DNA from: Nitrospira sp.
Lineage (GTDB): Bacteria > Nitrospirota > Nitrospiria > Nitrospirales > Nitrospiraceae
Direction: 5' to 3'
Assembly (NCBI GenBank): GCA_015709715.1
Contig: CP054184.1
Span: 915,001-979,000, forward strand
Length of the DNA: 64,000 nt
In this document: in pieces, positions 36,990-42,715 of the stretch
Layout: the number at the start of each line of letters is the position of its first letter
Numbering within the stretch: the stretch's first letter is position 1
Made by a program: the position numbers and the translations under genes
The notes under the pieces: model-generated
The model's database searches: none
What the model saw: the letters and a program-made list of their open reading frames with translations, nothing else
Told to the model about the DNA's origin: nothing

Positions 36990-37535
36990 TTACATCGCCC
37001 CCGCACCTTGAGCAGGTGTCGAGGCCAACAATTTGTCCACCTCTTGGATAATGACCTCTGCACCGGCCAATTCCATATTCCCGACACGTTGCCATCGGAT
37101 CACCCCCTGCTGATCAATGACATAGACGTTGGGAATGAACTTGCCGCCGCCATAGAGTTTGTCGGTGGTCTTATTCGGATCCAGCAGGTACGGATAGGTC
37201 ACTTTGACCGGAAAGGCGCTCAAAAACTCGCCCACATCCCGCTTCGAATTGCCGGATGAGTTCACTCCGACCACGGCGACGTTTTTCCCGCTCAAGGCCT
37301 CGTGCACTTTCTGCAGGTTGGTACCTTGCACCATGCAGGGATCGCAAATGTGGAACAAGCCCAACACCACAACTTTGCCCTTGAGACTCTCGAGGGCAAG
37401 CGGATCACCCGTCACCGACGTGAGAGAAAAAGCTGGAGCCTTTTCGCCGACCTTGAAAAATCCTGCCGCCAAGACAACTTCTGCGACCCAGAGGGGAGTC
37501 AAGAGTATGGCCGCAACGATCAGCAGTCGCTTCAT
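36990..37535 (-). CDS. Secreted thioredoxin-fold protein (TlpA/AhpC-TSA type)
   Basis: 181 aa from the ATG at 37535 with GGGAGG upstream. Signal peptide MKRLLIVAAILLTPLWVAEV, then VLAAG. The mature domain begins VGEKAPAFSLTSVTGDPLAL, typical of TlpA/peroxiredoxin-like proteins, and has the redox motif in FHICDPCMVQG (CxxC). NVYVIDQQGVIRWQRVG matches the conserved cis-Pro and strand region. It probably acts as a periplasmic thiol-disulfide oxidoreductase. It follows the RiPP nucleotidyltransferase by ~190 bases on the same strand. Confidence 0.85.
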   Translation of the reverse strand: MKRLLIVAAILLTPLWVAEVVLAAGFFKVGEKAPAFSLTSVTGDPLALESLKGKVVVLGLFHICDPCMVQGTNLQKVHEALSGKNVAVVGVNSSGNSKRDVGEFLSAFPVKVTYPYLLDPNKTTDKLYGGGKFIPNVYVIDQQGVIRWQRVGNMELAGAEVIIQEVDKLLASTPAQGAGAM

Positions 37536-37727
37536 GAGTGCCTCCCTTTCCGCATCCGGATTGGCCTCTGCCTGCAAACACCCGTGGAGCAGCCGGCCCA
37601 TCTTTGCCGCTCCGCTCGACACCAACAGTAAGGCATCCTAGCACGCGAATTTTTTCGGGAGCAACCGTCTTGGCTCGACGACTGATAGGATTTGGATGCG
37701 AAACAGCCCGGCGCAGGAAATCGACGT

Positions 37728-39023
37728 TTATGCGGAACGCTGCAACCACCGCACGATCACCCGACGCATCCGTGCCGAAGGCAAACACTTGACAGCCAAC
37801 CAGTGGAACGGCCTGAGCCACACCGCCAACTGCCGCAGGGCCGGCTGCGATACGAACCACGGTAACGGTCGTCGAATCACCGCGGCCTCACTGCGGCAGA
37901 GCGAGATCCCGAACTTCCACCGTTCCCACCACGAATCCTTCAGCAGGAAATGCAGCCCCTCCACATTCTGTTCGTCAATGCCGGAGGCGGGAAATTTGAG
38001 CAACTGCTTCGGCATATGGCGGAGCAAGCCGGGAATGGTCCGGTCTGTTTCAATCGCATCGAGCACGGCTCGCGGCAAGACGATGTCGAAGAGCGACTTC
38101 GCCAAGGCCAGTCCCAGCAAAACCATGCGCCGGCACCGCCATTCCTTTGCTAGGAACAGCAGCCGACTCCAATCCAAGGTTTGACGACGAGTGACCAGTT
38201 CCGCCACGTCGCACGCCCACTTCAGCTGCTCCCACCCGTGTTTTGCGCCGTGCACACAGAGGAGCAACAATAATTCTTCAGGACAAAGTCCCGGCACCGA
38301 TTTGGTTGGCAGATCGACGGCTCTCACACGAGCCCATAGCTGGCTTCGATCCAATCGAAACTCAAAGCGAGGCCCGGCCATGGTCCACTGTAGATCGACC
38401 GCGATAATGCCGTTACGCTTCTGAAAGAAATGGTAGGGCTCATCGGAGGATTCGTCGTAGTGCCCGTTCCGACTCGTCAGTTGATAGCCCTGAGACCACA
38501 AGACCTGTCGAGCCTGAGACACCGAGGTCTGATCGACGATCAAATCCAAGTCGGCGCACTCCCGCAACGCAAGGTCTCCATAGGCGAACTGGGCCAAGGT
38601 GACTCCCTTGAACGGAATGGTCCGGACCCCTTTCGCCGCCATGGCCTCGACCACGGACGCCAATTCCTTGGCCAACAGTGAGTTCAACAGAGCATTGGCT
38701 TGAATATGACGTCGGAAGAGTTCATGGACGGTCGCGGGGACCGCAGCAGGACAGATCGCGACCAGATTACGATATACTAGGGGTGCTACTCCGTGAGCCC
38801 TGGCCAACCGCCAAATCAGATCCCACTCCACGCCGTCATCGACCAGGTCCGCCACTTCGACACGGATAAAGTCGTTGATCCTCGTTCGGGCGCACAGCAC
38901 GAGCAAACGCCCTTCCGCGTGCAAATGAGCGAGCCCCGTCGATGGCACAAGCCGCTTTGGCATCGCTCCTCTCCGGCTCGACCGTTTCCAGCCTGTCGTC
39001 GTGGGTGTCACCCCTTGCCCCAT
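37728..39023 (-). CDS. Nucleotidyltransferase family protein of lasso/RiPP clusters
   Basis: 431 aa of the 'uncharacterised nucleotidyltransferase' family (NTP_transf_5 type) often found beside lasso-peptide genes. The catalytic region is IPFKGVTLAQFAYGDLALRE then CADLDLIVDQ with the D-x-D metal pair. A helical C-terminal half (LCPEELLLLLCVHGAKHGWE) is typical. It starts two bases before the end of the kinase gene; GGGAGAG is 8 bases upstream. An ATG at 38963 with GAGAGGAG is an alternative. Members may modify the phosphorylated peptide or another cluster product; function is not established. Confidence 0.82.
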   Translation of the reverse strand: MGQGVTPTTTGWKRSSRRGAMPKRLVPSTGLAHLHAEGRLLVLCARTRINDFIRVEVADLVDDGVEWDLIWRLARAHGVAPLVYRNLVAICPAAVPATVHELFRRHIQANALLNSLLAKELASVVEAMAAKGVRTIPFKGVTLAQFAYGDLALRECADLDLIVDQTSVSQARQVLWSQGYQLTSRNGHYDESSDEPYHFFQKRNGIIAVDLQWTMAGPRFEFRLDRSQLWARVRAVDLPTKSVPGLCPEELLLLLCVHGAKHGWEQLKWACDVAELVTRRQTLDWSRLLFLAKEWRCRRMVLLGLALAKSLFDIVLPRAVLDAIETDRTIPGLLRHMPKQLLKFPASGIDEQNVEGLHFLLKDSWWERWKFGISLCRSEAAVIRRPLPWFVSQPALRQLAVWLRPFHWLAVKCLPSARMRRVIVRWLQRSA

Positions 39024-39024
39024 G

Positions 39025-40062
39025 TCAGATCTCTCCCTTGCCTGTCCGTTCGAGTAATGGCGTCACCAGCCATGGTAGTTCCAACACATCACGGCCGAAA
39101 TGCAGCCGGTACGCATCCGCCTGTTCGACGAGGCGCGTCAACGCCTGAAATTCCCTGCGAGCGATATCCGCGTCATACACCAGCAGCGCGTGCGGAAGTA
39201 TGAGTTGCAGCGCCTGTTTCTTGGACAAGGGCTCCAGGCAACTGTGAGCGGAATCCACAACTTCGGGGAATAGGATCACGGCAGGAAGGCAGGGATCGCC
39301 CAACGGTGCCGGATAGAGATCCTGAACACGGAAGTATCGTTTGGGGATCCCGGGCCGGAGAATGGATGTGGGAGCCTGCTGCAATTCAGGAAAGAAGGCG
39401 ACGGTTTGGTCGGTCACATTGACCTTGAGCGGAAAAGGCAGCAGTTCGACTTGTCCGCCGGACAATCGAAAAAACGGATGATCGTCCGAGAGATACCGGT
39501 ATCCCCCTCGAAGCAAGGAGAGGAACGAAGTCGTTTTGCCACGGCCGCTGAATCCCGGAATCAGCACTCCCCGACCATTCTTTTCGAGAGCAGTGGCATG
39601 GAAGGTATACAGACCGCGCCGCTTGAGCAGTTCCGTCACGCCGAAGTGCACGAAACTCGCACGGATGTCGGCGGTCATGTCATCCGGTCGAACAACGTAG
39701 CCCTGCACGTGCCGCTTCGCTCCGTCGATCACAACCATGCCTTCTTCGTGAAAATCAGCCAGGATCAAGCCACGCGCTTCGTACACATCGCAACGCCAGG
39801 TCATCCGACGTCCCGTACCCACCGTCAGCCCTGAGCTTCCAAATAGTCGACGGGCATCGGCAGGCAGGCGCATTGGAATGTCGGCAGGGCAGGCGGCTGC
39901 CTCAAACTGCATCGTCATCGGCACGTCGCAGAAAGCTGTACACCTGAAAGCATAGAGGAGATCCTCAACCGCGTTCGCCACGGATGGGGACTCGGTCAGG
40001 AAGCGGATCTCTACGCCGTGAATAGAAAAGAGCAGTTCATGTGCGGCGATCGTCATTGCCAT
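39025..40062 (-). CDS. HPr-kinase-like serine kinase of RiPP (lasso-type) cluster
   Basis: 345 aa from the ATG at 40062 (40056 also possible). The C-terminal HprK-like fold has the P-loop PGFSGRGKTTSFLSLL at residues ~170-178 and the paired acidic motif YLSDDHPFF just after, as in HprK. A FHATALEKNGRGVLI strand precedes it. In paeninodin-type lasso clusters, homologues phosphorylate the C-terminal serine of the precursor peptide. The candidate precursor immediately upstream ends in Ser, which fits. It follows that small gene by 70 bases. Confidence 0.85.
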   Translation of the reverse strand: MAMTIAAHELLFSIHGVEIRFLTESPSVANAVEDLLYAFRCTAFCDVPMTMQFEAAACPADIPMRLPADARRLFGSSGLTVGTGRRMTWRCDVYEARGLILADFHEEGMVVIDGAKRHVQGYVVRPDDMTADIRASFVHFGVTELLKRRGLYTFHATALEKNGRGVLIPGFSGRGKTTSFLSLLRGGYRYLSDDHPFFRLSGGQVELLPFPLKVNVTDQTVAFFPELQQAPTSILRPGIPKRYFRVQDLYPAPLGDPCLPAVILFPEVVDSAHSCLEPLSKKQALQLILPHALLVYDADIARREFQALTRLVEQADAYRLHFGRDVLELPWLVTPLLERTGKGEI

Positions 40063-40132
40063 CGCAACCGTTCCCTTCGGGTTGCTGGTCGGCCATCGTC
40101 GCCGACCAGCCCTGACCCTTTGCTCGTGCCGA

Positions 40133-40246
40133 TTACGAAAACTGTTCGTTCTGGACGCGAGAGATGGCAATGGCCGTCACATCACGCAACAACTCATGTG
40201 CCACTAACTCCGGCTTGACATACTGCTGCTTTGGCTGCTCTTCCAT
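40133..40246 (-). CDS. Candidate RiPP precursor peptide (lasso-leader-like), 37 aa
   Basis: A short gene read directly from the sequence. ATG at 40246, TAA at 40135-40133, preceded by the near-perfect ribosome site AAAGGAGGTGA ending six bases before the ATG and overlapping the pqqD stop. Residues 9-24 read YVKPELVAHELLRDVT, fitting the lasso leader motif Y-x2-P-x-L-x3-G-x5-T except that Glu18 replaces Gly. If cleavage follows the residue after Thr24, the core is residues 26-37, IAISRVQNEQFS: 12 residues, Glu at core position 9 (the usual macrolactam acceptor range is 7-9) and a C-terminal Ser. A 12-residue core is short for a lasso. It is surrounded by RRE, protease, kinase and nucleotidyltransferase genes. 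Confidence 0.72.
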   Translation of the reverse strand: MEEQPKQQYVKPELVAHELLRDVTAIAISRVQNEQFS

Positions 40247-40252
40247 GCTGAT

Positions 40253-40570
40253 TCACCTCCTTTCAATGTGAAGTAATCCTTCCTCCTCCAAGTGCCGCAT
40301 CAGCTCCATGAGGTCGCGATGCGCCTGGTCCGCAGGCACATCGAACTCACGGCATACCGACTCCAGAATCTCCGCCAGCGAACGGTCTCCTTGGCACTGA
40401 TTCCAAATCAGGGCTCCCACTGGATTCAGTGTGTAATAGCGACCGGTGCTCAGATTCAGCACGACGCTCTCCCAGTCCAGCATGGTGCTATGCACATCCT
40501 GTCTCTGCTTGGGAACAAGCAGGGAGAGAGACATGAGATCTTCCTTCGAGACTTGGACCGCGTGAGACAT
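40253..40570 (-). CDS. PqqD-family RiPP recognition protein (lasso B1-like)
   Basis: 105 aa from the ATG at 40570, which has AGGAGG 5 bases upstream and so is preferred to the start at 40639. Classical PqqD fold: SVVLNLSTGRYYTLNPVGAL, then IWNQCQGDRSLAEILESVC and DLMELMRHLEEEGLLHI. Such proteins form the RiPP recognition element that binds the leader of the precursor and presents it to the B2 protease and other enzymes. Its stop lies within the ribosome-binding site of the precursor gene. Confidence 0.9.
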   Translation of the reverse strand: MSHAVQVSKEDLMSLSLLVPKQRQDVHSTMLDWESVVLNLSTGRYYTLNPVGALIWNQCQGDRSLAEILESVCREFDVPADQAHRDLMELMRHLEEEGLLHIERR

Positions 40571-40762
40571 GCAGGCCTCCTGATTGGACAGAGTAACGAT
40601 GAAGTCGTCCGCCGCCATGGAGCGGAAAGGTACCGTCACAGCTCAGCATTCTCTATTCCCACTGCGTCTGGACGACGCCCTCTTTTGAGGGAAACCATTG
40701 GGAGGGGATGTGAGGCAGGAACTCAGCTCCAGCGCCCTGCCAGAATTTTCCGCCGTTCGAAA

Positions 40763-41206
40763 CTACGCAGAGACAGGCGGGTGTTCGTGGGATGGACTCG
40801 AAGTAGGCGGACAGGCGACGGTAACGGTGAATGATTGCCAATACGGCGAGGGCTCGAGAAAGGCTCCGCCGTTGAGCATGAGCCAGGCATGACCTTCCAA
40901 ACGCTGATGAAGTTTCATAACGCCGCAGCAGAATTGAACCGGTAAGCCGCGTCGACGTGCGAACCAATAAAGTGCCAACGTACGTGGGAAGCAATTGCCT
41001 TTGGGATTGTAGGGGAACAGCGTCAACCAGCGGTCGACGTAGTACACGATTTTGTCCAGGGGAGCCGGCCTGCCCGCCCCCTCCGCAGGTCGACAGGTCA
41101 ACCAGCGCAACAGGCGCGGCAGTGACACCAGCCGGAGGCTCAACCTGATGACGACCAACGTGATCCCGGTGCCAAAGATCAGCCGATACCGATCAACCAC
41201 AGACAT
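40763..41206 (-). CDS. Lasso-peptide-type B2 leader protease (transglutaminase-like)
   Basis: 147 aa of the transglutaminase-like B2 family that cleaves the leader in lasso biosynthesis. The catalytic Cys72 lies in NCFPRTLALYWFARRRG and His106 in LEGHAWLMLNGGAFLEP. An N-terminal hydrophobic helix-rich segment (LIFGTGITLVVIRLSLRLV) is normal for the family. It is the first gene of the cassette, 78 bases after the purF stop and ~190 bases upstream of pqqD. The C-terminal tail (PPTSSPSHEHPPVSA) is less typical. Confidence 0.88.
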   Translation of the reverse strand: MSVVDRYRLIFGTGITLVVIRLSLRLVSLPRLLRWLTCRPAEGAGRPAPLDKIVYYVDRWLTLFPYNPKGNCFPRTLALYWFARRRGLPVQFCCGVMKLHQRLEGHAWLMLNGGAFLEPSPYWQSFTVTVACPPTSSPSHEHPPVSA

Positions 41207-41284: not shown

Positions 41285-42715
41285 TCAACGAGAGGGTTCG
41301 AACAGTCCTAATTGTAATTCTTCGGCGCGGGTAAAGGAGATGGGGTAGCGTTCGGTGAAGCACGCATTACAGTACTGTTCCGGCCCTCCCGGCGAAGCCT
41401 TCAACATGCCTTCCAAGCTGAGATAGCCTAAACTGTCGGCCGTGATGTATTTCCGAATTTCTTCCGTCGTATGGCTCGACGCGATCAGCTCCTTCTTCGT
41501 AGGCGTATCGATGCCATAGAAACAAGGCGAGAGAATGGGCGGCGAGCTGATCCGCATATGCACTTCCTTCGCCCCGGCGTGACGCAACATCTTCACGATC
41601 TTACGGCTGGTCGTCCCTCGCACCAGCGAGTCGTCTACAACCACGACGCGCTTGCCTTGCAGAACCTCGGGCACGGCATTCAACTTTACCTTCACGCCGA
41701 AGTGGCGGATGGACTGCTCAGGCTCAATGAAGGTGCGCCCCACGTAGTGGTTGCGGATCAGCCCCGTTTCAAACGGTACGCCGGCTCCTTCCGAATAGCC
41801 CAAGGCCGCAGGCACACCGGAATCAGGCACCGGAATGACGATATCAGCCGGCACCCATGATTCCTCCGCCAATTGACGGCCGAAAGCCTTACGGGTAGCG
41901 TACACCGTGCTACCTCCGAAAATCCGACTGTCCGGTCTCGCGAAGTAGACGTACTCAAATACACACATGGCGGGAGTCGTCGCTCCGAACGGCTTGTAAC
42001 TTTTCACCCCGTTATGATCCAGCACGATCAATTCACCCGGCTCGATTTCACGCACATACTCCGCATCCAACAAGTCAAAGGCACAACTCTCCGATGCGAC
42101 GATCCACGCATCTCGAAGCCGGCCCAAACAGAGCGGTCGAAAACCGTGCGGGTCACGGGCCGCCACGATGCCGTGGTCGGTCATCAGCACGACGGAAAAG
42201 GCCCCACGGACCTGCGACAAGGCATCAATGACTCGATCCAGCAACGTATCCGCCCGAGAATGGGCGATAAGGTGGATGATGACTTCGGTGTCGGAGGTCG
42301 ATTGAAAGATCGCCCCATAGGCTTCCAGCTCGCTTCGGAGCATGGTGGCATTAATCAAGTTGCCGTTGTGCGCGACGGCCAGATTTCCGAACGCGAAATT
42401 GACGCTCAGGGGTTGCACGTTCTTCAGACCAGCCCCGCCGGCCGTCGAGTAGCGGTTGTGGCCGATTGCCATCGTTCCCGGCAACCTCGCCAATGCCTGC
42501 TGCGAAAAGATGTCCGCCACCAACCCCTGGCCCTTCTCGATGTAAAAATGCTCACCGTCGTTCGAAACGATGCCGGAGGCTTCCTGTCCGCGATGTTGGA
42601 GCGCATAGAGCCCCAGATACGCAAGATTGGACGCTTCTTTATGGCCGTAAATGCCGAAGACGGCGCACTCGTCGTGAAATTTATCCGATGAGAGGAGCGG
42701 CAGTTCTTTCGCCAT
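41285..42715 (-). CDS. purF: Amidophosphoribosyltransferase
   Basis: 476-aa first enzyme of de novo purine synthesis (PRPP and glutamine to phosphoribosylamine). An 11-residue propeptide-like start precedes the Ntn nucleophile region ([20 protein letters not shown], Cys after Glu). The glutaminase domain continues with [13 protein letters not shown]. The PRPP-binding motif is [19 protein letters not shown]. The C-terminal Cys-containing region ([15 protein letters not shown]) resembles the Fe-S-associated Cys of Bacillus-type PurF. It follows purL by nine bases. Confidence 0.97.

Follow-up and report, generated by a model that had tools for sequence, protein, structure and literature searches.

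A cyclase-free, lasso-like gene cassette in Nitrospira predicted to make a linear phosphopeptide

The DNA analyzed here, referred to as the window, is a 64,000-nucleotide stretch of Nitrospira sp. (GenBank assembly GCA_015709715.1, contig CP054184.1, forward-strand positions 915,001 to 979,000). At window positions 37728-41206, on the minus strand, it carries a cassette of five genes in the order B2, B1, precursor, kinase and nucleotidyltransferase (NTase). These genes probably form a pathway for a ribosomally synthesized and post-translationally modified peptide (RiPP) that lacks a cyclase and leads to a linear phosphopeptide. The pathway resembles that of the linear polyphosphorylated peptides (LPPs) of Bacillota, with a protease of the lasso B2 type. 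The source genome is complete (4.16 Mb), and the public relatives in its genus are named Nitrospira, including Candidatus Nitrospira defluvii, in which this cassette also occurs (L092).

Results

Genes and selection

Profile matches and coordinates confirmed the five genes in the order and on the single strand given by the initial annotation, as well as the absence of a cyclase or exporter gene from the window's locus. B2 (40763..41206; 147 aa) is a lasso-type leader peptidase, a transglutaminase-like Cys protease that matches lasso_biosyn_B2 of NCBIfam at 54.8 bits (cutoff 33) and Transglut_core3 of Pfam (E 4e-18). B1 (40253..40639) is a PqqD-fold RiPP recognition element (RRE; Pfam PqqD, E 5e-21) predicted to bind a YxxP leader. 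Its true start is likely the ATG at 40570, because AGGAGG lies 5' of it and the resulting protein matches its relatives in length (105 aa). The precursor, A (40133..40246), has 37 aa, MEEQPKQQYVKPELVAHELLRDVTAIAISRVQNEQFS, with GAAAGGAGGTG upstream; it would be cut into the predicted leader MEEQPKQQYVKPELVAHELLRDVTA and the predicted core IAISRVQNEQFS. The codon of Ser29, a candidate phosphorylation site by conservation, lies at 40160..40162. The HprK-like peptide kinase runs from 39025 to about 40062, its start codon being predicted, and matches HprK_rel_A with E 5e-16, under the model cutoff. The last gene (37728..39023) encodes a nucleotidyltransferase-like protein of the NTP_transf_5 family (PF14907, E 1e-67), from which its function is predicted.

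All five genes, including the 37-aa open reading frame (ORF), are under purifying selection, and the set is beyond chance. Pooled Nei-Gojobori ratios of nonsynonymous to synonymous substitution (dN/dS) were lowest for the NTase (0.10), followed by the kinase (0.13), B2 (0.14), the precursor (0.17) and B1 (0.19), values that are rough since synonymous sites are near saturation. The ratio is uneven along the precursor: 0.06 from Tyr9 through Arg30 and 0.53 in the C-terminal tail. This pattern indicates that the small ORF is a real gene in which the leader and early core are tightly held and the tail is variable.

The precursor peptides

A set of 87 distinct precursor sequences was compared, 24 from the clade of the window and 63 from outside it. 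All share YxxP...H(E/Q/K)xLR(D/N)(I/V)T, although the conservation of the YxxP...H...R...T residues is partly by construction, since the collection pattern demanded that frame. No such requirement applied to the Ser. Core positions were counted with an assumed B2 cut after Thr-Ala or Thr-Gly, following the rule for lasso leaders, which places Thr at -2. The window leader, YVKPEL...DVTA, fits the lasso form YxxPx[L..] with penultimate Thr, and its cut was assumed to follow TA. On this count Ser29 is core position 4, and it is invariant in 24/24 clade precursors. Outside the clade, Ser or Tyr occupies core position 3 in 63/63 precursors, whose cores span 10-38 residues and are in many cases Gly-rich. 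Seven clusters located away from purF, with the order B1-A-K-N-B2-ABC (K, kinase; N, NTase; ABC, ATP-binding cassette exporter), have very Gly-rich, aromatic or His-rich cores, for example KRSGHGGGHGHGHGFGHGFGHTGGRR (L107, L108, L114, L117, L118, L122 and L129).

The clade cores cannot close a lasso ring. None of the 24 follows the ring rule of Gly, Ala, Ser or Cys at position 1 with Asp or Glu at 7-9; they begin with Ile, Thr or Gln, and an acid at 7-9 is missing from 14 of them. Only five clade precursors, including that of the window, end in Ser, so the C-terminal target of the paeninodin type is not conserved.

Active sites and their link to the precursor

The B2 residues C72, H106 and E118 were conserved in 17/17 relatives. 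In the kinase, the His, the P-loop Lys and the Asp-Asp pair, a set named essential in lasso kinases (PMC9266682), were located by HprK alignment and are intact in the window (HATAL, GFSGRGKT, SDD). The window NTase likewise has K139, D158-x-D160 and D210. Where a precursor was found, the kinase residues were kept in 64/64 cases and the NTase residues (K139-D158-D160-D210) in 53/53. Where none was found, the kinase His was lost in 8/22, six of which had also lost the Lys, and the NTase site was lost in 4/19. This supports a coupling between active sites and precursor but does not prove it, because the group without a precursor includes truncated contigs, the rows are partly redundant, and there are only about two independent loss events for the kinase and about one for the NTase. 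In precursor-less genomes with decayed active sites, B1 has changed as well: its strand GRYYTLN, the expected partner of the leader, reads GQFHRLS or similar.

Search for a cyclase

The initial annotation had raised the possibility of a cyclase elsewhere in the genome, and this was rejected. The genome has genes for five full-length AsnB-like proteins, but these genes neighbor glycosyltransferases and epimerases of glycan loci, and no B1, B2, kinase or precursor lies within about 5 kb of any of the five. Genomes that have the cassette and genomes that do not carry similar numbers of AsnB genes, with 4-7 in those that lack it (G013, G015, G020, G024 and G027). The proposed synteny check for a lasso cyclase consistently co-inherited with the cassette was also negative. 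About 90 related loci were compared, a number that counts some places twice. The purF-site loci lack an AsnB-like gene in every genus; ASNB matches there were discounted as the glutaminase domain of purF. A clear AsnB stands beside B1/B2 only in L153, which comes from a distant Nitrospirota family. One further AsnB, in L185, is 3.9 kb off, behind unrelated genes.

In L153 (5923-11041), a true AsnB cyclase lies with an ORF in which kinase and NTase are fused; the candidate precursor there, MKNYEKPIFMKHKAIESAATVYYYYYYY, ends in seven tyrosines. Loose searches of the deep Nitrospirota clusters L147-L158 found no convincing precursor apart from this candidate. In L126 (1170-2861), a single open frame contains fused B2 and NTase domains. 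These two fusions link the cassette proteins to each other.

Distribution and decay in the genus

A B2-family match was present in 24/29 genus genomes and was above the family cutoff in 22/29. Every intact locus examined lies at a single site, with the order purL-purF-B2-B1-A-K-N-TlpA. The flanks in the window are ordinary: purL and purF (41285..42715, minus strand) upstream and a TlpA/ResA-like thioredoxin protein (36990..37625, minus strand) downstream. The latter two are fixed neighbors and served as synteny markers. The purF-to-TlpA site is shared across the genus and by a sister genus (G405), whose version of the five-gene set includes two precursors; several genus genomes also encode a second precursor. 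The conservation at one site over the whole genus points to a housekeeping or signaling role rather than to a patchy antibiotic.

The cassette has decayed in some genomes. B2 is broken in four (G008, G014, G020 and G022), and in five others (G006, G013, G015, G024 and G027) only the NTase remains, with or without B1. The NTase active site has decayed in 4/5 genomes with older pathway losses. In five loci (L169, L170, L172, L173 and L174) the NTase ORF is still open, with a dN/dS of about 0.2, after loss of the kinase, precursor and B2; four of these have a decayed NTase active site, and three retain B1 with an altered leader-binding strand. Transposase-like ORFs lie between purF and B1 in L173 (5062-6125), from G006, which has lost most of the cassette. 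Six other loci (L177-L179 and L119-L121) have a lone HprK-like kinase at the site, with neither precursor nor B1. Their catalytic His is Tyr and their P-loop Lys is Arg, so these proteins are probably no longer kinases, though kept as ORFs.

PADLOC gave no defense-family match, the promoter and terminator scan gave no signal above chance, and a PDB sequence search with the B2 and NTase profiles gave no useful match.

Sister lineages at the purF site

Other genera have additional genes at the same site. They encode an ABC exporter, a pair of ATP-grasp ligases akin to TIGR04187/MvdD, and a protein like fatty acid (FA) hydroxylases. The order B2-ABC-grasp-grasp-B1-A-K-FAH-N (FAH, FA-hydroxylase-like protein) was found there in L159 and L161, while the ABC gene was not detected in L175 and L176. 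The order B1-A-K-N-B2-ABC occurs in many Nitrospira lineages. The exporter of the sister lineages is MsbA-like and is present at the same site; the missing exporter noted initially is peculiar to the clade of the window. In the kinase tree this clade had a support of 100, but how it branches with respect to the two other Nitrospira kinase clades was not resolved. It may have lost the exporter, ATP-grasp and FA-hydroxylase genes or never have had them.

Three loci of other Nitrospira genera, L132 (10833-16519), L159 (3425-9989) and L161 (3031-9871), combine at the purF-TlpA site an MsbA-like exporter, two ATP-grasp peptide-maturase homologues, PqqD, a kinase and an FA-hydroxylase-like protein, and are possible phospho-graspetide clusters with the same leader family. 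Another Nitrospira genus has a divergent B2-kinase-B1-NTase cluster away from purF, with about 0.9 kb unassigned between kinase and B1 (L155-L158). An extra C-terminal end of purF, 27 aa, lies inside the cluster of L116 (6813-6893), suggesting tandem duplication at the site.

Discussion

Proposed pathway

In the pathway that we propose, B1 would bind the YVKPEL leader and present the precursor. The HprK-like kinase would then add one or more phosphates to the conserved Ser just past the leader, and the NTP_transf_5 protein would attach a group, either a sugar or a nucleotide, to the phosphate. The B2 Cys protease would cut after Thr-Ala and so free a linear, modified product some 12 residues long. 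This scheme is LPP-like, except that a lasso B2 protease would replace the signal-peptidase-like LppS and the clade's locus has no dedicated exporter. The phosphorylation, cleavage and NTase chemistry are drawn by analogy with the protein families. The initial annotation had suggested a linear, phosphorylated or nucleotidylated peptide. Cores unable to form a lasso ring, the invariant Ser and the active sites retained wherever a precursor was found argue for the first two terms. A nucleotide may or may not be the group that is added: PsmN is reported to lead to hexosylation of phospho-Ser (PMC9266682), and LppN had no visible effect (PMC13381572).

Several observations weigh against this proposal. 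The locus has no exporter, and the kinase and B1 score under the curated cutoffs of named subfamilies. The AlphaFold models were too poor to use (predicted local distance difference test scores of 46.8 for the kinase and 56.7 for the NTase). The clade Ser is one residue further along than in the sister lineages; this shift, and an AIQLSR segment that is conserved like the leader, mean that the true cut site may differ. Finally, the NTase ORF persists in 29/29 genus genomes, even those without the cassette. An independent enzymatic job for the NTase was considered, and it is weakened by the catalytic decay in 4/5 older-loss genomes.

Alternative explanations

The kinase could instead target the C-terminal Ser, as in paeninodin, with the NTase adding a hexose to give a linear peptide with a pseudomycoidin-like tail. 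PadeK and PsmK do act on a C-terminal Ser (PMC9266682) and the window's peptide ends in one, but so few clade precursors share it, while the internal Ser is invariant, that this explanation is unlikely. We give the same low weight to the idea that the cassette is the decaying remnant of a larger cluster with an ABC exporter, two ATP-grasp ligases and an FA-hydroxylase, whose product is no longer made. Sister genera do hold such a cluster at the same site (L159 and L161, and L175 and L176 without a detected ABC gene), and broken or partial cassettes occur within the genus. Most genus genomes, however, have five intact genes with dN/dS of 0.10-0.19 and all catalytic residues kept, sister genus G405 retains the same five genes, and the kinase tree does not nest the clade within the ATP-grasp-linked kinases.

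Explanations that require a ring fare worse still. It is very improbable that this is an ordinary lasso system with a split locus, its ring closed by one of the five AsnB-like proteins encoded elsewhere. L153 does place an AsnB next to B1/B2 in a kinase-bearing cluster, but the AsnB genes of this genome lie in glycan surroundings, their numbers are the same in cassette-lacking genomes, and the cores have unsuitable residues at position 1 and often at 7-9. Even less credible is a graspetide-like ring made by ATP-grasp ligases encoded elsewhere. Homologues of ATP-grasp peptide maturases accompany the same leader family in the sister lineages, but the window's own genome has no ATP-grasp maturase match, good full-length ones were found in only 3/29 genus genomes, and the repeated Thr/Ser/Lys and Asp/Glu pairs of ATP-grasp-linked precursors are missing from the cores of the clade.

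Alongside the cyclase-free phosphopeptide pathway, we tentatively raise a broader scheme, less likely than not, in which Nitrospirota have their own RiPP superfamily at a fixed site, with one leader/RRE scheme and interchangeable tailoring sets. One set (kinase, NTase and B2) might make linear phospho-glyco- or nucleotidyl-peptides, and another (kinase, two ATP-grasp ligases and FA-hydroxylase) phosphorylated graspetide-like rings. The clade of the window could then be the minimal, exporter-free form, its product acting inside the nitrite-oxidizing cell.

These results extend the idea of cyclase-free phosphopeptide RiPPs from Bacillota to Nitrospira, a major nitrite-oxidizing and comammox (complete ammonia oxidation) group, and suggest that a B2 protease of the lasso type need not go together with lasso cyclization. 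The natural series of gain and loss (NTase only, kinase only, full set, full set with ATP-grasp) can be used to decipher the roles of the kinase and of the long uncharacterized NTP_transf_5 family.

Comparison with known systems

No earlier paper on such a cassette in Nitrospira was found among the open-licence papers searched. The HPr-rel-A system (TIGR04352, TIGR04353) and SynChlorMet (TIGR04248, TIGR04249) also pair an HprK-related kinase with a PqqD-like protein, but all scores were far under the curated NCBIfam cutoffs; TIGR04352 gave 58.6 bits against 200 and TIGR04353 19.1 against 35, which does not support HPr-rel-A membership. With graspetides (MvdC/MvdD, TIGR04187) the likeness lies in the sister lineages, where two ATP-grasp ligases accompany this leader family, B1 and kinase at the same site; the window's genome differs in having no maturase match. 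The cassette shares the B1 RRE and B2 with lasso peptides but not the linked AsnB-like macrolactam cyclase. Paeninodin and pseudomycoidin (PadeK, PsmK, PsmN) are closer, with B1, B2, an HprK-like kinase with His-Lys-Asp-Asp and an NTase, although the Nitrospira clade has neither the AsnB cyclase nor a ring-forming core nor a conserved C-terminal Ser. PsmN is the sole NTase of this kind with a reported in vivo product (PMC9266682).

The nearest counterpart is the LPP pathway, described from the lpp cluster of Paenibacillus alginolyticus by Popov et al. in May 2026. This cyclase-free system consists of the RRE LppB, the kinase LppK, the NTase LppN, the MsbA-like LppD and the SipW-like peptidase LppS; it places polyphosphate on core Ser3 and was stated to be restricted to Bacillota (PMC13381572). 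The initial suggestion of a distinct RiPP type therefore does not fully hold, and to call it wholly new would be too strong. Nitrospira differs from the LPPs in its lasso-type B2 Cys protease, which takes the place of the SipW-like signal peptidase I (SpI), a gene not present at the locus. Other differences are the Nitrospirota host, the short core (about 12 aa), the lack of an MsbA-like exporter in the window, and a single fixed chromosomal site with apparently vertical inheritance in contrast to a patchy distribution. The Ser also sits at T+5 in the clade and T+4 in the sister lineages, compared to T+3 in LPPs. In sequence, B1 resembles LppB (E 2.5e-5) less closely than it does the lasso RREs TbiB1 (2e-13) and PbaB1 (8e-12), so functional likeness need not mean common descent. 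Shared with the LPPs are an RRE, an HprK kinase, an NTP transferase and the absence of a cyclase, as well as a YxxP-leader precursor in which the leader is followed closely by a Thr and a conserved Ser. The segment YVKPELVAHELLRDVTAIAIS is laid out like the LPP motif YxxPxVLxHQxIxFETxxS (PMC13381572), except that its Ser comes two residues later, so that it may or may not count as that motif. The invariant Asp of B1 (D109 in long-ORF numbering) matches the Tyr-binding Asp70 of LppB. In the sister lineages, the order B1-A-K-N-B2-ABC, with its MsbA-like exporter, has the genes of the LPP set except that B2 replaces LppS.

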